Below, in pieces: positions 48,763 through 64,000 of a DNA stretch of 64,000 nt (position 1 is its first letter; each line of letters opens with the position of its first letter). This DNA is from Solimicrobium silvestre (GTDB taxonomy: Bacteria; Pseudomonadota; Gammaproteobacteria; Burkholderiales; Burkholderiaceae_D), in NCBI RefSeq assembly GCF_002976435.1, contig NZ_PUGF01000009.1:1-64000 (forward strand), read 5' to 3'. The position numbers and the translations under genes were made by a program. The notes below the pieces were generated by a model. That model saw only the letters and a list, made by a program, of their open reading frames with translations, searched no databases and was not told the DNA's origin.

Positions 48763-50343
48763 ATGCATTCAAAAATTCTGATCCTTGATTTTGGTTCACA
48801 GGTTACTCAATTAATCGCACGCCGCGTTCGTGATGCGGGTGTATTTTCTGAAGTCTATCCCTATGATGTGAGCGATGAATTTATTCGCAACTATGGTGCA
48901 GCAGGAATTATCTTGTCTGGTGGCCCAAATAGCGTTACTGAAGATGAAACGCCACGCGCTCCGCAAGCAGTTTTTGAATTAGGTGTTCCAGTTTTAGGTA
49001 TTTGCTACGGAATGCAAACCATGGCAGCTCAATTGGGCGGCCAGGTAGAAAACGGCACGGTACGTGAATTTGGCTATGCAGAAGTACGCGCCCGTGGCCA
49101 TACCAACTTATTAAAAGACATCGCTGATTTCACGACAGCGGAAGGTCATGGCATGCTCAAAGTATGGATGAGTCATGGCGACAAAGTAAATAGTATGCCG
49201 GTCGGTTTTAAATTGATGGCATCCACCGATAATTGTCCTATCGCTGGTATGGCAGACGAAGAGCGCCGTTTTTACGCGGTGCAATTCCATCCGGAAGTAA
49301 CTCACACCGTGCAAGGCGCAGCTTTATTAGGTCGTTTTGTGCATGAAATTTGCGGCTGTAAATCTGACTGGAATATGCCGGATTACATTAGCGAAGCGGT
49401 TGCTGCAATTCGCGCTCAAGTTGGTTCGGACGATGTAATTTTAGGTTTGTCGGGCGGCGTAGATAGTAGCGTTGCGGCGGCCTTAATTCATCGTGCGATT
49501 GGTAATCAGTTGACCTGCGTTTTTGTTGATCATGGCCTGTTGCGTTTGGATGAAGGCAAAATGGTCATGGAAATGTTTGCGGAAAACTTAGGCGTTAAAG
49601 TTATTCGGATTGATGCGGCTCAACAATTTATGGGGCATTTGGCCGGTGTTTCTGATCCTGAGCAAAAGCGTAAAATCATCGGTCGTGAATTCGTTGAAGT
49701 TTTCCAGGTTGAATCAGCCAAAATTAAAAATGCTAAATGGTTAGCGCAAGGCACTATTTATCCAGATGTGATTGAAAGTGCCGGTAAAGGCAAAAAAGGT
49801 CACACGATCAAGAGCCACCACAACGTGGGCGGTTTGCCGGAAACCTTGCATTTGAAATTGCTCGAGCCATTGCGTGAGTTATTTAAAGATGAAGTGCGCA
49901 AATTAGGTGTGGCATTAGGTTTGCCTGAGGCGATGGTATATCGCCATCCTTTCCCTGGTCCGGGTTTGGGCGTGCGTATTTTAGGCGAAGTTAAACAGGA
50001 TTTTGCTGATTTGCTGCGCCGTGCGGATGCTATCTTCATTGAAGAATTGCGCAATACGCCAGTCGAAGGTACGGATCAAAATTGGTATCAGGCGACCAGC
50101 CAGGCTTTTGCCGTATTTTTGCCGGTGAAATCCGTCGGTGTGATGGGCGATGGTCGCACTTATGAGTATGTCGTGGCATTGCGTGCGGTTCAAACATTGG
50201 ATTTCATGACTGCACAGTGGGCACATTTGCCGCATGAATTGCTAGGTAAAGTGTCGAACCGTATTATCAATGAAGTACGTGGTATTAACCGCGTTGTGTA
50301 TGATATTTCCGGTAAGCCACCTGCGACGATTGAGTGGGAATGA
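48763..50343 (+). CDS. guaA: GMP synthase (glutamine-hydrolysing)
   Basis: This 526-residue enzyme aminates XMP to GMP. The N-terminal glutamine amidotransferase has the nucleophile C81 in [15 protein letters not shown] and His/Glu in [10 protein letters not shown]. The ATP-pyrophosphatase domain has the P-loop [17 protein letters not shown]. The C-terminal dimerisation domain ends [17 protein letters not shown], the invariant GuaA end. The 3' end of guaA is a known insertion site for genomic islands, and a tyrosine integrase follows 307 bp downstream. The reading frame remains intact after integration. Confidence 0.97.
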
Positions 50344-50390
50344 TAGAACGTCAAGCATTGACTCGCAATTAGAAGTACATAAACACGCTG

Positions 50391-50416
50391 AAGCCCGCAT
50401 GATTGCGGGCTTTTTT
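50391..50416 (+). terminator. Intrinsic terminator after guaA
   Basis: An 8-bp stem AAGCCCGC/GCGGGCTT with a 6-nt loop is followed by a run of six Ts ending at 50416. It ends the guaB-guaA transcript before the integrase region. Confidence 0.9.
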
Positions 50417-50485
50417 GCTATTTGATCTGGCGTTTTCTAGCAGTGGCAAGTTTGCGTAAGCACGGTTTTTATTGTGGCATTGTTA

Positions 50486-50626
50486 ATGGTATGATTTGAA
50501 CCTATACCATGAGCCGCTACCAATACCATGAAGCTACATTTTGACTGTGCATGGTATTGAAATAATCTAACACATTGATTTTAATGATTTAAATTGATAA
50601 AAAATAGGCTGAAAAAATCATGGTAT
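50486..50626. repeat. ATACCATG repeat cluster before the integrase gene
   Basis: Two direct copies ATACCATG (50504-50511, 50523-50530), two inverted copies CATGGTAT (50550-50557, 50619-50626) and a partial ATGGTAT (50486-50492) lie within 141 bp between guaA and int. The number, orientation and place suggest arm-type binding sites for integrase or excisionase. No gene is seen in 50417-50650. Confidence 0.65.
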
Positions 50627-50650
50627 TTATAACCGATATGAACGGATGTC

Positions 50651-51874
50651 ATGTTAACCGATACCAAGCTTCGCAATTTAAAGCCGCAAGGCAAACTGTA
50701 TAAAGTAAATGACCGTGATGGGCTCTATGTTGCCGTTACTCCGGCAGGGTCAATTTCATTTCGCTATAACTACTCCATCAATGGACGACAGGAAACACTG
50801 ACGTTTGGACGGTATGGGGCTGGTGGGATAACTCTATCGGAAGCGCGAGAGCAGCTTAATGACGCTAAAAAACTGATCTCAACTGGGAAGTCTCCAGCCA
50901 AAGAAAAAGCACGTGGCAAGGCGCGGATAAAAGACCTAGAGACATTCGGTGCCTGGGCTGATAAATGGCTCCGTGGTTACCAGATGGCCGACTCTACGCG
51001 CGATATGCGTAAGTCAATTTATGAGCGCGAATTAAAACCTAAATTCGCCAATCAGAAACTGGCCGAATTCACGCATGAAGATTTGCGTGCGCTGACGGAT
51101 TCCATTGTGGAACGCGGAGCGCCGGCAACGGCGGTACATGTCCGTGAAGTAGTTATGCAAGTATTCCGGTGGGCGATTGAGCGCGGCCAGAAGGTTGAAA
51201 ATCCGGCTGATATGGTGCGGCCAACAACCATTGCAAAGTTTGAGCCACGTGATCGTGCTTTAACTCCGGAAGAAATAGGGTTGATGTACCAGTACATGGA
51301 ACGCATCGGAACAACGCCGTCGATTCGTGCGGCGGCTAAATTGCTTTTGTTGACGCTGGTGAGAAAAAGTGAGTTGACTAACGCAACGTGGAGCGAGATC
51401 AATTTTACGGATGCAGTCTGGACCGTACCGAAAGAGCGTATGAAGCGTCGCAATCCGCATCATGTCTATTTGTCGCAACAGGCGTTGGATATTTTTATTG
51501 CTCTTAAAACCTTTGCCGGTGGATCTGAGTATATTTTGCCATCGCGTTATGACTCCGATTTACCTATGAGTAGCGCCACGCTCAATCAGGTTTTGTCGTT
51601 GACGTACAAACTCGCGCAGAAGGAGGGCAAGGCGCTGCCAAAATTCGGCCCACATGATTTACGCAGGACTGGCAGCACCTTGTTGCATGAAGCTGGCTAT
51701 AACACCGATTGGATTGAAAAATGCCTTGCTCATGAACAAAGGGGAGTAAGGGCGGTCTATAACAAGGCCGAATATCGGGAACAGCGTACGGCCATGTTAC
51801 AGGATTGGGCTAATATGATCGATGAGTGGACAATCAAGCGGAAGCAACCATCTGCGTTAAGCCTGGTCGCCTAG
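50651..51874 (+). CDS. Tyrosine-type phage integrase (P4-like)
   Basis: This 407-residue site-specific recombinase has an N-terminal arm-binding DUF4102-type domain (KLRNLKPQGKLYKVNDRDGL, about residues 5-90), a SAM-like core-binding domain (about 100-190) and the catalytic domain. Catalytic residues visible are R238 in LLTLVRKSELT, H and R in FGPHDLRRTGST, H in CLAHEQRG and the nucleophile Tyr370 in AVYNKAEYREQ. Integrases of this class often use the guaA 3' end or tRNA genes. Its 3' end overlaps the convergent AlpA-type gene by 41 bp. Confidence 0.95.
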   Translation: MLTDTKLRNLKPQGKLYKVNDRDGLYVAVTPAGSISFRYNYSINGRQETLTFGRYGAGGITLSEAREQLNDAKKLISTGKSPAKEKARGKARIKDLETFGAWADKWLRGYQMADSTRDMRKSIYERELKPKFANQKLAEFTHEDLRALTDSIVERGAPATAVHVREVVMQVFRWAIERGQKVENPADMVRPTTIAKFEPRDRALTPEEIGLMYQYMERIGTTPSIRAAAKLLLLTLVRKSELTNATWSEINFTDAVWTVPKERMKRRNPHHVYLSQQALDIFIALKTFAGGSEYILPSRYDSDLPMSSATLNQVLSLTYKLAQKEGKALPKFGPHDLRRTGSTLLHEAGYNTDWIEKCLAHEQRGVRAVYNKAEYREQRTAMLQDWANMIDEWTIKRKQPSALSLVA

Positions 51875-55424: not shown

Positions 55425-55850
55425 ATGAAGTTGAATCTACGCGCCGACAGTGTGGCGCATCAAGTGCTGATGATGTTGGTTAGTGAGCCGAAAGGGTGTT
55501 TGCATGTGAGCGCATTTTTTGATTTATTAAAGGGCAAAAGCAGTACTACTCATGGCACCAGAATTATCAATCGATGCGGACGCATTATCAGTGAACGCAT
55601 GGCCACTGTGAAGGCTGAAATGTGGACGATTACAGAGCGTGGACGTAGACAATTAGTAGAGCCGGATAGCATGGATTTTGATGTATCCAACCCTACATTA
55701 ATAACTCCCTCGCGCACGATTCGACCATTTAGACCGCTGCAATTAAAGCAAAATAAGCAACCATATCGAGCGGGATCTAATGACTATTCTTTGATCCCAT
55801 CGCTATTTGGTGACGTTAGAAAGTTACCAAATGGTGAGGTGGTAGATTGA
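55425..55850 (+). CDS. Prophage protein, possible winged helix, unknown
   Basis: This 141-residue protein has an N-terminal part (DSVAHQVLMMLVSEPKGCLH, then RIINRCGRIISERMATVKAE and WTITERGRRQL) that looks like a small winged-helix DNA-binding unit, and a Pro/Arg-rich, probably flexible C-terminus. The ATG at 55425 is preferred to a TTG at 55419. Its stop overlaps the TTG start of the primase gene, so the two are translated together and may cooperate in replication. I do not recognise the family. Confidence 0.68.
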   Translation: MKLNLRADSVAHQVLMMLVSEPKGCLHVSAFFDLLKGKSSTTHGTRIINRCGRIISERMATVKAEMWTITERGRRQLVEPDSMDFDVSNPTLITPSRTIRPFRPLQLKQNKQPYRAGSNDYSLIPSLFGDVRKLPNGEVVD

Positions 55851-58339
55851 GTCGTGACGATTTTCAGCATGTTAAGCAAGCTGCCTTATATTCAATCGAA
55901 GCATTGCTAACGCGATGGCTTCCAAATGGCGTACTTGAAGGGCGTGAGTGGTGCATAGGTTCGCGTGAAGGCGAAGCTGGGCGTTCGATGAAAGTGTGTA
56001 TAGCTGGTGAACGGATTGGACGTTGGTCAGATTTTGCATCGGGCGATACTGGCGGCGATTTGATTTCGCTTTACTCCTATATAAACAGCATTTCTCAACT
56101 CGTGGCCATGAAAGAAGTGGCCGGTCAGTTGGGGATTGATATTGCCAGCGCGCGCATTAAATCCGCTATTACACCTATAAAAACGAGCGTGTCGGCAATA
56201 CCAGAGCTGATTAAAAACAAGCGTACAGCTTGGGTTCCTATTTTGCCTGTACCTGATGATGCGCCGGTTGCACCCGTGGCGCATTTAGTCCGTGGCCGTT
56301 CTGAAATATCGTGGGCATACAGGAATCAGCAGGGTTACTTACTCGGCATGGTGCACCGTTTTAAAACATCTAAAGTCGGTAAGGATGGTAAGCCCGGTAA
56401 GGAATTTTATCCGTGTGTTTATGCGCGGCATCCTAATACCGGAGCCAGTGAGTGGCGCTGGATGGGTTTTCCTGATCCTCGTCCGCTATACCTGACTGCG
56501 CCATTGCGTGACGATGCCCTCGTCCTTATTCCTGAAGGGGAGAAATGCGCAGATGCAGGCTTTAAGGCTTTTCCACAATTGGATGTGGTTAGCTGGGGTG
56601 GCGGTAGTAATGCGGTTGCTAAACATGATTGGACACCGCTGGCCGGACGCAACGTGATTGTGTGGTCGGATGCTGATGCAGCTGGGGCAAAAGCTACGTT
56701 AAAGCTGATTGCAATTCTGTTTGCCATTGGGTGTACGGTCAAAATCGTCCTAATTCCCGATGGTGTGGAGGAGGGTTGGGATATCGTCAATGCGATAGAG
56801 GACGGCCGTGATGTTCGGGCGATGTTGTCGGCTGCCGTGCTGGTGACGGCGAGCGACCTGACGGCATTGGGCGAGACCGGCTCCCCTCCCTCCCCCACCG
56901 GAGAGGAACAACGGTTGGGGGATGAATCCCCCAAAGATGAACACCAAAAAAATCACACTACACGTAAGTTGAGTTTAGTGGTTTCTAATAAGCCTGATAT
57001 CCCTGCGCCTGATGCAGTTCAGCCGGGGGAAGGGAAGGCCAAGCGGAAGTTGGTTGAGCGTGGTGAATCGTTTTGGGATGGTGTTAATCATCTGCTGGAG
57101 CATTTCACACTGCTGTATGGGACGAATACAGCGTGGGACGATGTTGAGCGAATTCAGATTCTGATTCCCAATTTGCGCTATGCATTTGGGGCAGATCAGG
57201 TCAAATTTTGGCTGAATAACCGTGATCGAAAAATGATCAATTCGCGTTGTTTAGTGTTTGATCCAACTGAAACGGTGGATTTGGAAACACATGTCAATAT
57301 GTTTAATGGTTTTAATTTGGAACCGCAGGCTGGTGAGTGCGGTTTGATTTTAGATTTGCTTGCGCATTTATGTGGCGACCAGCAAGAGTTAATCGATTGG
57401 GTGATTAAGTGGATTGCTTATCCGTTGCAACATCCCGGCGCAAAAATGTCGACTTCCATCATTATGCATGGCGATGAGGGTTCAGGAAAAAATCTGTTTT
57501 GGGAAACGGTGGTGCGTAATTTGTATGGTGAATATGGTGGTGTTATCGGTAATGCTCAGCTCGAAGCGCAGTTTAATGAATGGGCATCCAAGAAGCTGTT
57601 TTTTGTGGCGGATGAGGTGGTTACTCGTAATGAGTTAAGGCAGATGAAGGGTAAATTAAAGAGTTTGATTTCTGGTGATGAAATCAATATCAATCCAAAA
57701 AATTTACCGGAACGCCGCGAAGCAAATCACATCAATTTTGTATTTCTGTCCAATGAGTTGCAGCCACTTGCCTTGGACAAAACTGACCGCAGGTATTTGG
57801 TTGTCTGGACCCCGCCAAAGCACGAAGCGGAATATTACAAGGCGATTGCCGACCAGGTTGGAAGTGGTGGGTTAGAAGCGTTTTATCATTACCTTTTACA
57901 AGTCGATTGCAGCGATTTTAACGCGCACACAAAGCCGATTGATACTGTTGCTAAACGCAATTTAATTTCATTAGGTTTGACGTCACCAGAGCGATTTTAT
58001 CGAGAGTGGGAGGCAGGCGTATTACCACTGCCATTTATTAGTTGCTCTGCGATGCAACTGTTTGCCGCTTTTTTACGCTGGAGTAATTTAAATAACGAGC
58101 GATTCCCGCCAACACAAACCGAATTTGGCGGCAAGGTTGAGCGAATGGCCGCCGGTGCTGTTAAGCGGAAAGCGGTGAAATATGATCTGAGAAATGTGGT
58201 GAAGCAAAGAATTGTTTATTTGGTTGGTACGCCACCAGAGGGCAAGAAACTCAACGAGTGGGTTGGCGATGCTTCTGACCTGTTTGAGACGTATTTGAAG
58301 AAGTACCGCCATGTATACGATCAGTCCGAACAGACCTAA
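55847..58339 (+). CDS. Phage primase-helicase (Toprim plus SF3 helicase)
   Basis: This 830-residue replication protein starts DFQHVKQAALYSIEALL, with GRWSDFASGDTGGDLISLY typical of phage DNA primases. A Toprim domain follows (about residues 220-330) with VLIPEGEKCADAGF and VIVWSDADAAGAKA. After a Pro/Glu-rich linker (about 343-380) comes a superfamily 3 helicase domain of the DUF5906 type with Walker A GDEGSGKNLFW, Walker B KLFFVADEVV and sensor VFLSNELQPLALDKTDRR. The start is TTG at 55847 with a GAGGTGG site, overlapping the preceding stop. It is directly followed by an array of 9-bp repeats that may be its origin. Confidence 0.9.
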   Translation: MSRDDFQHVKQAALYSIEALLTRWLPNGVLEGREWCIGSREGEAGRSMKVCIAGERIGRWSDFASGDTGGDLISLYSYINSISQLVAMKEVAGQLGIDIASARIKSAITPIKTSVSAIPELIKNKRTAWVPILPVPDDAPVAPVAHLVRGRSEISWAYRNQQGYLLGMVHRFKTSKVGKDGKPGKEFYPCVYARHPNTGASEWRWMGFPDPRPLYLTAPLRDDALVLIPEGEKCADAGFKAFPQLDVVSWGGGSNAVAKHDWTPLAGRNVIVWSDADAAGAKATLKLIAILFAIGCTVKIVLIPDGVEEGWDIVNAIEDGRDVRAMLSAAVLVTASDLTALGETGSPPSPTGEEQRLGDESPKDEHQKNHTTRKLSLVVSNKPDIPAPDAVQPGEGKAKRKLVERGESFWDGVNHLLEHFTLLYGTNTAWDDVERIQILIPNLRYAFGADQVKFWLNNRDRKMINSRCLVFDPTETVDLETHVNMFNGFNLEPQAGECGLILDLLAHLCGDQQELIDWVIKWIAYPLQHPGAKMSTSIIMHGDEGSGKNLFWETVVRNLYGEYGGVIGNAQLEAQFNEWASKKLFFVADEVVTRNELRQMKGKLKSLISGDEININPKNLPERREANHINFVFLSNELQPLALDKTDRRYLVVWTPPKHEAEYYKAIADQVGSGGLEAFYHYLLQVDCSDFNAHTKPIDTVAKRNLISLGLTSPERFYREWEAGVLPLPFISCSAMQLFAAFLRWSNLNNERFPPTQTEFGGKVERMAAGAVKRKAVKYDLRNVVKQRIVYLVGTPPEGKKLNEWVGDASDLFETYLKKYRHVYDQSEQT
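56915..56934. repeat. Palindrome in the primase linker
   Basis: TTGGGGGAT-GA-ATCCCCCAA is a perfect palindrome with a 2-nt centre, inside a GC-rich stretch (about 56876-56940) that encodes the non-conserved linker between Toprim and helicase domains. It may be a small inserted element that kept the frame. Confidence 0.6.
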
Positions 58340-58423
58340 CCCTCAACACTCTCAACACAACTATCCACACGCGTAACCCGCATGAAATAAGGCTTTGTTG
58401 ACAGTATGGACAGTGTGGATAGT
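58339..58423. repeat. Iteron module 1 (six 9-bp repeats)
   Basis: Plus-oriented 9-mers ACCCTCAAC (58339), ACTCTCAAC (58348) and, after 3 nt, ACTATCCAC (58360) are followed by a 28-bp spacer ending with ATAAGGCTT. Three contiguous minus-oriented units follow: GTTGACAGT (58397), ATGGACAGT (58406) and GTGGATAGT (58415). The consensus is ACTNTC(C/A)A(C/T). It begins at the last base of the primase stop codon. A binding array for a replication or regulatory protein is inferred. Confidence 0.8.
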
Positions 58424-58507
58424 TTTTTTAGCCCCACGTGTGCGTGTGCGCGAGGATGTAATTTTTAAACGGTAACACTCACTAAATCACTCTCTGACTT
58501 ACTTTTA

Positions 58508-58592
58508 ACTATCCATACTATCCACACTATCAATAAACCTAATAAATATAAGGCTTAGAGAGATGGACAGTAGTGTTGAGAGTGTTGATAGT
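58508..58592. repeat. Iteron module 2 (six 9-bp repeats)
   Basis: Contiguous plus-oriented units ACTATCCAT (58508), ACTATCCAC (58517) and ACTATCAAT (58526) are followed by an AT-rich 28-bp spacer with ATAAGGCTT. Minus-oriented ATGGACAGT (58563) comes next, then a 3-nt gap, GTTGAGAGT (58575) and GTTGATAGT (58584). The module is 85 bp, the same as module 1, with the gap in the mirrored position. No gene is seen in 58340-58696. Confidence 0.8.
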
Positions 58593-58696: not shown

Positions 58697-59095
58697 ATGA
58701 ATAGGGTTGCAAGAGTTATTCCGGTAAATTATATCGAAGAGTCTCCGTTGGATTTATGCTTGCGGCTTTGGGCTAAGTCAAAGCAAGTCGATGATAAGGA
58801 TCTGGGTATTCAAAAACGTTTCAGTTTGAAATCTGATTATGATGGTTATGGTAGTAACGATACTTATCAATCAGACTCAAGCCAGTCACGCAGAGATAAT
58901 GAAATTGCAGATGCAACTGAAGCAATGATCATGAGCTTAACTGGGTGCCATCGATGGGCTATTCAGCGATCAATGAATGTATGCAGAGTTTGGAACTATC
59001 CGCAGTTGAATTATTTAAATGAGCTTGAGGCAGCAAGGGCGGAGCTTGAAAAAAAGTTACGCAACAACCTTGCAACGCGCACGGAGTTCTGTTAG
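58697..59095 (+). CDS. Prophage protein, possible late regulator, unknown
   Basis: This 132-residue protein has a very strong GGAGGAG ribosome site. The first half is polar and loosely structured (DYDGYGSNDTYQSDSSQSRR); the second half (EIADATEAMIMSLTGCHRWA, then IQRSMNVCRVWNYPQLNYLN) looks like a helix-turn-helix ending in a coiled helix. Its place between the replication genes and the terminase genes is where many temperate phages carry a late-gene antiterminator or activator. That role is inferred from position and this fold hint only. Confidence 0.65.
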   Translation: MNRVARVIPVNYIEESPLDLCLRLWAKSKQVDDKDLGIQKRFSLKSDYDGYGSNDTYQSDSSQSRRDNEIADATEAMIMSLTGCHRWAIQRSMNVCRVWNYPQLNYLNELEAARAELEKKLRNNLATRTEFC

Positions 59096-59226: not shown

Positions 59227-59538
59227 ATGACTGCAGTCCCATATAAGAATTTATACGGTAGAAAAAATTGGTTCCGGTTGCGCTGGAATCAATTGCAACG
59301 TCAGCCTCTATGCGAACTTCATTTGAAATTAAACAGGGTTGTAGCTGCAACCATTGTCGACCACATTAAGCCGCATCGCGGTAATGAAATTCTGTTTTTC
59401 GATCCACTTAACTTGCAATCGTTATGCAAAACTTGCCACGACGGAGCAAAGCAAGAATTAGAAAAGTCTGGAACATTAAGAGGTTGTGATTTATCTGGAC
59501 AGCCGCTTGATTGTAATCATCACTGGAATCGCAAGTAA
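59227..59538 (+). CDS. HNH endonuclease
   Basis: This 103-residue nuclease has the HNH core TIVDHIKPHRGNEILFFDPL, with the zinc/His residues in DHIKPH and the Asn in LNLQSLCKTCHDGAK, ending in the usual C-x2-C half knuckle. Such small HNH proteins beside terminase genes are needed for specific DNA cleavage in packaging of HK97-like phages. It is immediately upstream of the terminase small subunit gene, as expected. Confidence 0.92.
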   Translation: MTAVPYKNLYGRKNWFRLRWNQLQRQPLCELHLKLNRVVAATIVDHIKPHRGNEILFFDPLNLQSLCKTCHDGAKQELEKSGTLRGCDLSGQPLDCNHHWNRK

Positions 59539-59656
59539 TTCAATCAGAAGGGGGGCATGAAAAGTCCACAACCTTCACTTTCCCACACCGCTAGTCTACC
59601 TTTCTTTGCATACCCGCGAAATGGATAGGGTGGGGGGTAATCATTTGGAGATCACT

Positions 59657-60121
59657 ATGGCAGGTAGGCCGCCAAAACCGACAGCTTTAAAAATTGTTGG
59701 TGGAAATGCTGGCAAGCGTGGGATGAATAAGCAGGAACCCGACCCAACTTATCTTCAAGATTTAACTGCGCCAGAGTGGCTACCGAATCGCGCCAAAATT
59801 ATTTGGAATGAACTTGCGCCTCATTTATCTGCCGCGAAATTATTAACCAACGTTGATATCGAGCTGCTATCTCAGGGCTGCGTTGCCATCGCTAACTTCC
59901 GATTATCAACAGAAAAAAGTGGTGAAGATTTGGTCAAGGGAGGCGGTTTTGAAAAAGGCGAAAGCCTCAACCCATGGATGATCGTGCAGAGCATGAGTTT
60001 CAAACAAGCCATGGCAGTATTCCAACAGTTCGGCATGTCACCAGCCGCAAGAACACGTATAGCTATTCAGCCGCAGGGAGATTTGTTTGGTGGAGAAGAT
60101 AAAGCCGCCGCGTATTTCTGA
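59657..60121 (+). CDS. Phage terminase small subunit (P27 family)
   Basis: This 154-residue DNA-recognition subunit of the packaging motor has the P27-type start GRPPKPTALKIVGGNAGKR and the helical middle EWLPNRAKIIWNELAPHLS with AKLLTNVDIELLSQGCVA, ending in a region MSPAARTRIAIQPQGDLFGG. The ATG at 59657 follows GGAGA by 5 nt and gives the family start MAGRPP; an upstream start at 59606 is rejected. It overlaps the large subunit gene by 35 bp. Confidence 0.93.
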   Translation: MAGRPPKPTALKIVGGNAGKRGMNKQEPDPTYLQDLTAPEWLPNRAKIIWNELAPHLSAAKLLTNVDIELLSQGCVAIANFRLSTEKSGEDLVKGGGFEKGESLNPWMIVQSMSFKQAMAVFQQFGMSPAARTRIAIQPQGDLFGGEDKAAAYF

Positions 60122-61817
60122 CCGCGCAACCGACTATGCAAAGAAAGTAGTATCAGGAAAAATACTCGCAGGCCAGCATATTCGCGCCGCGTGCAAGCGC
60201 CACATTGATGATATTAAAACGGGCGCAGCCAGAGGGCTGAAATGGGACAAGGCTCTAGCTGCAAGGGCAATTGGCTACTTTGAAAATGTCCTCTGCCTCA
60301 ATGGAGGTGAATACGAAGGCTTGCCGTTCATCCTGTTGGACTGGCAAGCCTTTATCGTTGGTAGCTTGTTTGGCTGGATTGGTGATGATGGTTACCGCCG
60401 TTTCCGTGTTGCCTATGTTGAAACGGCAAAGGGAAGTGGCAAGTCACCGTTGGCGGCAGGGGTAGGTTTATACGGCATGACATCCGATGGTGAATCAAGG
60501 GCAGAAGTCTACGCCGCTGCCACCAAAAAAGACCAGGCACAAATTTTGTTTCGTGATGCCGTGGCCATGGTTGATCAGTCGCCGCACTTAAACCGCCGAA
60601 TAGAGCGCAGTGGCTCAAAAGGCAAAGAATGGAATCTAGCCCATCAAGCCAGCGCATCATTCTTCAGGCCGATCAGCTCAGACGAAGGGCAATCCGGGCC
60701 ACGTCCACACATTGCACTACTGGATGAAATCCACGAGCACCGCAACGCCCACGCAGTAGAAATGATGCGAGCTGGTACCAAGAGCCGCCGCCAAGCCCTT
60801 ATTTTCATGATTACTAACTCAGGTACAGATAAGCGCACAGTCTGCTGGGATTACCACGACTACGGTGCCAAAGTTAGTGCCGGTCAGTTAAAGGACGACA
60901 GTTTTTTTGCTTACATCTGCTCTATCGATGAAGGCGACAACCCGTTTAAAGATGAAAAGTGCTGGTACAAGGCCAATCCAAGTTTAAAGGACGGAATACC
61001 CGGACTTAAATATTTACGCGAGCAAGTAACCCAAGCGCGTGGCATGCCATCCAAAGAGTCATTAGTGCGCCGGTTGAATTTTTGCGAGTGGACGGAAGCA
61101 ATTTCACCGTGGATATCGAGCGAGTCGTGGTTTATCTGTGAACAAAATCCGCTCATACCCCTAGAACAATTTTACGGGCGCAGTGGTGTAGCTGGGTTAG
61201 ATTTATCCAGTACCACAGATTTAACTGCGCTCGTTGTTGCGCTAGATCCCACTGAAGATGATCCTGTTACGCGCATCATCCCTTATTTCTGGCTACCGGG
61301 CGATGGGCTGCATGACAAAGCCGACAAAGATCGCGTTCCCTATTTGGCATGGCGTGATGCTGGTCACCTTGAGGCTCTACCAGGTAAAGCGATTGATAAG
61401 CTGGCAGTTCTAAATAGAATCTCTCTATTAACCGCCATGTTCAACCTGCGCGAAATAGCCTGTGATCGCTGGCGCCTAGAAGATTTTCAGCAAATGGTCG
61501 ACCGTGAAGGTGTCGCACTGCCACCATTAACACCGTTCGGCCAAGGTTTTAAAGACATGGCACCCGCCATTGATGAATTTGAAAGCATGCTGCTAGATCA
61601 GCGGCTCATGCACAACGGCAATCCGGTCATGACATGGAATGCCGCCAACGCCGTATTAATGACTGACCCGGCAGGTAACCGCAAATTAGCGAAAGAGCGT
61701 GCAACAGGCCGCATTGACGGCATGGTCGCAGCCGTAATGGCAATCGGCTGTGCGATGCGCGGCCTAGCCGTTAAACCGCCCTCAGTGTATGAAACACGCG
61801 GCATAAGGATGCTTTAA
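60087..61817 (+). CDS. Phage terminase large subunit
   Basis: This packaging ATPase/nuclease has 576 residues. The ATPase domain shows the Walker A-type ETAKGSGKSPLAAG near residue 112, a coupling stretch AAATKKDQAQILFRDAV, and Walker B HIALLDEIHEHRNA. The nuclease domain has the first acidic residue in GLDLSSTTDLTALVV (near 373), and further acidic positions follow in EIACDRWRLEDFQQM. The start is TTG 60087 (GGGAG 6 nt upstream) or GTG 60090. It belongs to the family often paired with P27 small subunits. Confidence 0.94.
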   Translation: MVEKIKPPRISDRATDYAKKVVSGKILAGQHIRAACKRHIDDIKTGAARGLKWDKALAARAIGYFENVLCLNGGEYEGLPFILLDWQAFIVGSLFGWIGDDGYRRFRVAYVETAKGSGKSPLAAGVGLYGMTSDGESRAEVYAAATKKDQAQILFRDAVAMVDQSPHLNRRIERSGSKGKEWNLAHQASASFFRPISSDEGQSGPRPHIALLDEIHEHRNAHAVEMMRAGTKSRRQALIFMITNSGTDKRTVCWDYHDYGAKVSAGQLKDDSFFAYICSIDEGDNPFKDEKCWYKANPSLKDGIPGLKYLREQVTQARGMPSKESLVRRLNFCEWTEAISPWISSESWFICEQNPLIPLEQFYGRSGVAGLDLSSTTDLTALVVALDPTEDDPVTRIIPYFWLPGDGLHDKADKDRVPYLAWRDAGHLEALPGKAIDKLAVLNRISLLTAMFNLREIACDRWRLEDFQQMVDREGVALPPLTPFGQGFKDMAPAIDEFESMLLDQRLMHNGNPVMTWNAANAVLMTDPAGNRKLAKERATGRIDGMVAAVMAIGCAMRGLAVKPPSVYETRGIRML

Positions 61818-63888: not shown

Positions 63889-64000
63889 AACAAACAGCCA
63901 TCGCACGCGGTATCCAGTCTGTTCGCGCAGAAACTGACGTAAGCGCATTAATTGGTAGTTTAAACAAAGCATTTGCCGACTTTAAAGCGGAAAATGATCG
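63885..64000 (+). CDS. Phage major capsid protein, N-terminal part
   Basis: Only the first 38 complete codons lie in the window: MKQTAIARGIQSVRAETDVS and a helical NKAFADFKAEND. This helical start after the protease gene is the scaffold-like delta domain of HK97-type capsid proteins, which the protease removes. The identity is inferred from position and the helical start; the fold itself lies outside the window. Confidence 0.82.
   Translation, partial: MKQTAIARGIQSVRAETDVSALIGSLNKAFADFKAEND

Follow-up and report, generated by a model that had tools for sequence, protein, structure and literature searches.

We report here that a 254-bp array of twelve 9-bp iterons, standing in mirror symmetry directly 3' of a primase-helicase gene in a prophage of Solimicrobium silvestre, recurs in its layout behind related primases, that the iterons themselves diverge in sequence from locus to locus, and that they co-vary with the C-terminal tail of the primase-helicase. 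The array occupies positions 58339-58592 of the window, i.e. the whole 64,000-nucleotide stretch analyzed (contig NZ_PUGF01000009.1, positions 1 to 64,000 of the forward strand). It is probably the cis-acting replication element of the prophage, and most likely the origin, bound by the primase-helicase encoded upstream. The initial annotation had considered an origin or copy-control region plausible, and this reading is the best supported because the array is kept 3' of the primase across distant phages, the repeats track the tail of the protein and a winged helix is predicted for that tail. In its best form the reading would be that of a replication origin, or of the portion of an origin to which the initiator binds, with the primase-helicase of the phage itself as the reader. 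We infer iteron binding, ring loading, melting of the centre and the start of replication as its steps: the primase-helicase would bind the 9-bp iterons via its C-terminal winged helix; two helicase rings facing opposite ways would be loaded at the half sites, which hold six iterons each and mirror one another; the two loaded rings would melt the centre between them; and the melted centre would let the Toprim domain prime.

Layout of the array

The twelve 9-mers are arranged in groups of three in the order + + + - - - + + + - - -, with group and gap lengths of 30-28-27-84-27-28-30 bp, which amounts to two 85-bp modules on either side of an 84-bp centre. The features of the element and of the gene preceding it are:

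55847-58339, plus strand: primase-helicase gene, the proposed initiator, with a Toprim_2 domain, a superfamily 3 (SF3)-type DUF5906/VapE-like helicase and a predicted C-terminal winged helix
57983-58312, plus strand: predicted winged-helix domain (about residues 713-822), the proposed iteron reader on the basis of structure models and co-variation with the iterons
58339-58368, plus strand: iteron group 1 (58339-58347 with one mismatch, 58348-58356, a 3-nt gap, 58360-58368)
58369-58396, no strand: spacer M, 28 bp, containing AACCCGCATGAAATAAGGCTTT; such 6-mers recur in the same slot of related phages
58397-58423, minus strand: iteron group 2 (58397-58405, 58406-58414, 58415-58423)
58424-58507, no strand: centre, 84 bp, 60% A+T
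58435-58452, no strand: strict purine/pyrimidine alternation of 18 nt (CACGTGTGCGTGTGCGCG), a length reached by 0/2000 shuffles of the centre
58508-58534, plus strand: iteron group 3 (58508-58516, 58517-58525, 58526-58534)
58535-58562, no strand: spacer M', 28 bp, containing AAACCTAATAAATATAAGGCTT
58563-58592, minus strand: iteron group 4 (58563-58571, a 3-nt gap, 58575-58583, 58584-58592)

Eleven of the 12 copies match ACTNTCMAY exactly and the twelfth, ACCCTCAAC at 58339-58347, departs from it by one change; positions 1, 2, 5, 6 and 8 of the 9-mer are invariant in 12/12 copies and position 3 in 11/12. The mirror is exact to the base: start and end sum to 116931 in all six mirror pairs, which places the axis at 58465.5. 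The 3-nt gaps are confined to the outer iteron groups, ATAAGGCTT is present twice (58387 and 58548), and the first iteron overlaps the primase stop codon (TAA, 58337-58339) by one base. Hence, the twelve 9-mers, their orientations, the spacing, the centre near 58465 and the direct repeat described in the initial annotation are all borne out to the base. The alternating stretch at 58435-58452 is, to judge by its composition, likely to be Z-DNA-prone.

Chance does not produce such clustering: the 254 bp hold 11 exact 9-mers, against a mean of 0.06 and a maximum of 2 in 2000 dinucleotide shuffles. Across the whole window there are 19 ACTNTCMAY matches (6.6 +/- 2.8 expected), and the 8 lying outside the array are single 9-mers at chance level; apart from the array, tandem copies occur at just one place in the genome as a whole, a two-copy site on a different contig. 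A single strand of the array folds into one long hairpin (z = -6.5), in which the outer groups (1 and 4) pair with each other, as do the inner ones (2 and 3). A promoter scan gave 1 hit with 1.2 expected, i.e. chance level, and terminator-like sites number 2 with 0.6 expected, both on the minus strand.

Recurrence of the array behind related primases

Relatives of the primase were collected from 300 genomes belonging to the same order (of which 62 gave a match, yielding the best-match loci and a second set taken by coordinates), from IMG/VR (the best 80 of 587 confirmed) and from genome_contigs (the best 80 of 209); all sets consist of the best-scoring rows and are not a random sample. In the last of these, the named primases that match best belong to Herbaspirillum and further Burkholderiales, and the named bacterial contigs are largely from Beta- and Gammaproteobacteria. 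Left out beforehand were L040 (a truncated locus), L057 (reading frame unclear), L007 (its primase being the same as the window's), L008 (its contig shared with L138) and the first-look loci that longer stretches had superseded. Of the 195 loci entered, 4 were dropped before counting (L090, L152 and L189 as too short and one locus with masked bases), and 32 of the remaining 191 were removed as near-duplicates, which left 159 including the window's own locus. The repeat count is that of the best 8-mer in the 420 nt after the stop codon, with one mismatch allowed and both strands read.

Over these 159 loci the repeat count has a mean of 9.8 and a mode of 12, against 4.9 (maximum 8) in the coding control and 4.5 (maximum 9) in shuffles, and it lies above every shuffle in 94/159. 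The inverted-repeat score has a median of 57, against 22 (maximum 33) in the coding control. Either the repeat count or the inverted repeat exceeds every coding control at 143/159 loci. In 140/159 loci (ties counted) the stretch richest in repeats is the one at the primase stop, and just 6/6880 distal windows reach 10 repeats. All of the six named phages looked at, each with a record bearing the title of a complete genome, carry 11-13 repeats. The pass rate is 137/142 in the three sets gathered mainly by similarity in the helicase half.

What is conserved is the geometry. Among the 129 loci with at least 8 repeats, where the array can be segmented, the centre has a median length of 79 nt (121 loci) and the two spacers have 25 and 30 nt (110 loci each). 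Mirror-opposite orientation is seen in 495/661 pairs (341 +/- 12 when permuted), and in 90/111 loci the first half is fitted better by the locus's own second half than, on average, by the second halves of other loci. The longest purine/pyrimidine alternation in the centre has a median of 18 nt, against 6 when shuffled, and lies above the shuffled 95% point in 101/121. Halves of 6+6 are present in 22/111 segmentable loci, and exact six-pair mirroring, by 8-mer count, in 2/111; the window is therefore an unusually regular case. Loci with exactly 12 repeats (n=28) show the order + + + + + + - - - - - - in 9 cases and + + - + + + - - - + - - in 4.

The spelling of the repeats, in contrast, is not conserved. 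The initial annotation had put forward the 9-mer profile and the spacing together as the marks to be sought in other prophages: the layout does recur, but the 9-mer is not shared, and ACTNTCMAY forms no cluster of three in any of the first relatives (L008, L009 and L011-L039). The profile search misses the relatives because the layout is conserved and the repeat sequence is not. Comparison of the element's DNA with a phage collection gave 58 records, and the 20 matches listed were all short and at chance level (best E 7), as is expected if the repeat sequence is private. Single linkage sorts the repeats of the 129 loci into 37 classes; since two chained classes hold 52 and 38 loci, 'private' is, on the sequences compared, best understood as widely different with recurring themes, e.g. 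GTTACGC and GCAGGGT.

The M spacers carry real recurring 6-mers, with ACCCGC in 32/110 and the best shuffled 6-mer in 6. A general stem test found no excess of hairpins in these spacers: the longest stem is 3.36 against 3.14 shuffled for M and 3.42 against 3.43 for M'. By contrast, enrichment is seen for the frame ARCC...GGYT (M 12/110 against 0.4 shuffled; M' 7/110 against 0.5), and its stricter form AARCC...GGYTT occurs in 26/159 element windows, 8/139 distal windows and 1/159 coding controls, so that an M-spacer hairpin in a minority of loci is still conceivable.

Individual loci show further variation. L041 has an extended array of 15 repeats, in which the spacer AAACCCGCGCCGTTACTGGGTTT occurs twice with a third related copy. 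In L042, L044 and L048, of the second order-level set, the array fails the strict tests and looks cut to about its first half, with the repeats seeming to continue into coding-like sequence; these are possibly a reduced form of the element. In Stenotrophomonas phage S1 an annotated hypothetical protein, gp2, overlies the repeat array (L220:2454-2804) and, given this overlap, may be an over-annotation of a non-coding origin.

The candidate reader and competing readings

The primase-helicase has 830 residues and matches Pfam Toprim_2 and DUF5906, VapE-like below its cut-off, and PHROG primase families. A structure model of residues 395-830 (predicted local distance difference test, pLDDT, 90.9) has as its best Foldseek match the helicase region of NrS-1 (6k9c, E 1.5e-19), then the SaPI5 primase-helicase (7ola, E 3.8e-10) and, after these, other D5-like viral helicases. 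The tail modelled alone (pLDDT 86.8) is a helical domain with a beta wing, and is accordingly predicted from the model to be a winged helix. The protein has the build of NrS-1/SaPI5-like SF3 primase-helicases, with a primase domain, an SF3-type helicase and the predicted C-terminal winged helix.

Among 142 loci with an alignable helicase, the similarity of the iterons goes with that of the tail (r 0.219, p 0.001, in a partial Mantel test), hardly with that of the N-terminal part (0.058, p 0.009) and not with that of the helicase (r 0.018, p 0.21). Natural swaps give the same picture: where tails are at least 45% and N-terminal parts less than 15% identical, iterons are shared in 49% of 88 pairs, against 5.6% of 107 pairs in the reverse swap (N-terminal part alike, tail unlike) and 2.9% of 3895 where both are low. 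This co-variation supports the C-terminal domain of the proposed initiator as the candidate reader of the iterons.

The same comparison bears on whether the array might be a hub for another phage protein, be it the 143-residue protein encoded upstream or the product of a gene downstream, or whether it might serve in packaging as a cos/pac site. The nearness of HNH, TerS and TerL genes (59227-61817) would suit such a role. Yet the neighbours differ elsewhere, as in H4907, where an antitermination gene on the same strand comes next, and in Turba, where a holin gene does, and the iterons track the downstream gene much less closely than the tail of the primase: with the downstream gene in the model, the tail retains r 0.217 (p 0.002) and that gene has r 0.051 (p 0.004). 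Pairs with tails alike and downstream genes unlike share iterons in 70% of 263 cases, while for downstream genes alike and tails unlike there are only 5 pairs, of which 0 share iterons. We regard this as the least probable of the readings considered. The 143-residue protein has no Pfam or PHROG match.

The long hairpin could instead point to a structured RNA, or to a hairpin controlling transcription, at the 3' terminus of the transcript of the primase gene, and the plus strand does fold slightly better than its complement in 100/159 loci (p 9e-5), the coding controls showing no bias (73/159). Against this, mismatches in the arms are G-T in 554 and A-C in 494 cases (p 0.07; by locus 67 against 51 with 41 ties, p 0.17), where an RNA is expected to give a clear wobble excess, in a comparison made without a positive control of known RNAs. 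Rfam 15 places on the window one microRNA model at the element, at 27.8 of 230 bits and far below its cut-off, and gives no match at the element in 16 loci. Moreover, tandem like repeats within each arm would be superfluous for a hairpin, and the repeats track a predicted DNA-binding tail. We therefore favour an element that acts as DNA and hold an RNA role to be very improbable. Rfam matches to C4 antisense RNA and int-alpA RNA were seen in related loci at L023:485-570 and L068:1110-1178, away from the array.

Several observations weigh against an origin read by the primase tail. Both the repeat and the inverted-repeat tests fail at 16/159 loci; the second order-level set passes in only 6/17 (four of its members being, by Pfam, one VapE-like, two DUF927 and one D5_N helicase); and the fairly near relatives L142, L144 and L151 have weak arrays with a repeat count of 5. 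The fold matches of the tail are weak, the best being a replication terminator protein at E 0.083 and none falling below 0.001. The co-variation may in part be linkage, as the tail adjoins the element, although the helicase and the downstream gene show little co-variation with the iterons, which runs counter to this. The centre is no more than weakly enriched in A+T, with a best 20-nt A+T stretch of 0.66 against 0.64 shuffled (higher in 70/121); a strong A+T-rich unwinding block in the centre, considered as a candidate feature, is not supported across the loci.

Finally, a helper site with the start elsewhere is conceivable, phage P4 having both an origin and a cis replication region (crr). 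In this case the array would be bound by the primase-helicase and be needed for, or limit, replication (copy control), with synthesis starting at a second site. In the P4 record, ten iterons directly 3' of alpha are annotated as crr, in the same position as the array and with a similar repeat size, and the annotated origin lies about 4.5 kb off with six type 1 repeats. However, the window and genome show no second iteron-bearing site beyond the chance-level single 9-mers and the two-copy site noted above, and the 3' array of phage-inducible chromosomal islands (PICIs) is described as an origin (PMC6092414). We accordingly consider such a helper site unlikely, and an origin read by the phage's own primase-helicase remains the preferred reading.

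A wider proposition, which we find doubtful though less so than the helper site, is a widespread class of phage origins built on a mirror-symmetric, cruciform-capable scaffold with a Z-DNA-prone tip: its form would be kept while the repeats and the reader domain change together, so that a phage would respond to no initiator but its own. Where phages and satellites coinfect a cell, the element would thus lock in the identity of each replicon, and the initiator would recognize the folded DNA in addition to the linear repeats.

Prophage setting and comparison with known systems

The array lies in what looks like a tailed prophage and not a satellite, because genes for an integrase, terminase, portal and head protease are all present in the carrier (genes being read to position 64000). 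The integrase gene is at 50651-51874, and the open reading frame just ahead of it (region 48763-51874) we take to be guaA (guanosine monophosphate synthase), which suggests attachment of the prophage at the guaA 3' end. Genes for CII-like and repressor proteins lie 5' of the primase-helicase; 3' of the array, the HNH, TerS and TerL genes are followed by those for the portal and head protease. The 132-residue reading frame after the array (58697-59095) has no Pfam or PHROG match. In related loci a small protein (...EMP.TA.FID.LR.AFG...-like) often seems to be encoded directly 3' of the element, as at L011:3111-3362, and by eye a similar one follows it in L009, L013, L015 and L060-L063. Elsewhere in the genome, G000:C3:141661-141939 is 61% identical to primase residues 2-94, within a 104-residue open frame, and is perhaps, by this similarity, what is left of another prophage related to this one.

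According to a paper from 2018 (PMC6092414), phage satellites share the organization of their origins with no bacterial replicon known otherwise. A comparable or more elaborate organization is found here in a prophage with packaging and head genes, in the six named phages and in the majority of the contigs collected, viral and bacterial; among the titles and abstract openings covered, mostly from journals outside subscription, we recognized no description of a mirrored array in phages. If the origin reading is true, it would allow origins to be predicted in many unannotated phages, link satellite origins to phage origins, and make the natural domain swaps a record of joint change in initiator and iterons under a kept geometry. 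It also poses a sharp, testable question: why is the mirror spacing kept while the letters drift?

The initial annotation knew of no described element with this design, which is too strong: the origins of PICIs and of Staphylococcus aureus pathogenicity islands (SaPIs), as well as P4 crr, hold iterons directly 3' of a primase or helicase gene (PMC6092414, PMC7581432 and the P4 record). In our comparison the closest known counterparts appear to be these origins 3' of rep in phage satellites, together with crr. SaPI Rep uses its C-terminal domain to read the iterons that follow its gene directly (PMC7581432); in Gram-negative PICIs an A+T-rich region lying 3' of rep is flanked by two sets of iterons, and one such rep-ori supported plasmid maintenance (PMC6092414). 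The array resembles them in having iterons immediately 3' of the gene for a putative initiator and two sets flanking a centre (on the PICI side by description, PMC6092414), and in a helicase fold near that of the SaPI5 primase-helicase. It differs in its carrier, which has integrase, TerS, TerL, portal and head protease; in its approximately 12 iterons, four-group mirror and recurring M/M' spacers (the PICI origin being known to us by description); and in a centre marked by purine/pyrimidine alternation and not by a strong A+T-rich block.

Other systems share single aspects. pRN1 has a large, poorly conserved stem-loop directly 3' of its primase-helicase gene, which its replication requires, but no iteron structure (PMC4234260). 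The same paper notes a BIP-1 stem-loop; BIP-1, tried as a member, has 4 repeats, i.e. background level, and no array. The putative origin of Cch2 in the staphylococcal cassette chromosome SCCmec has direct repeats to which the C-terminal domain binds and which lie downstream of the gene for the helicase, but these are three 5-nt iterons only, and its inverted repeats are dispensable for Cch2 binding (PMC7581432). P4 crr likewise has short (8-bp) iterons in both orientations directly 3' of the primase-helicase gene, and P4 alpha binds its repeats via a winged helix (PMC4234260); yet crr consists of two 120-bp direct repeats of five iterons each (+ + - - +) with no mirror, and is paired with a distant annotated origin, no counterpart of which is visible here. 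Our verdict from these sequence comparisons is that the array is probably of the satellite rep-ori/crr kind, found in phages, where its mirror geometry recurs and its repeats are private.

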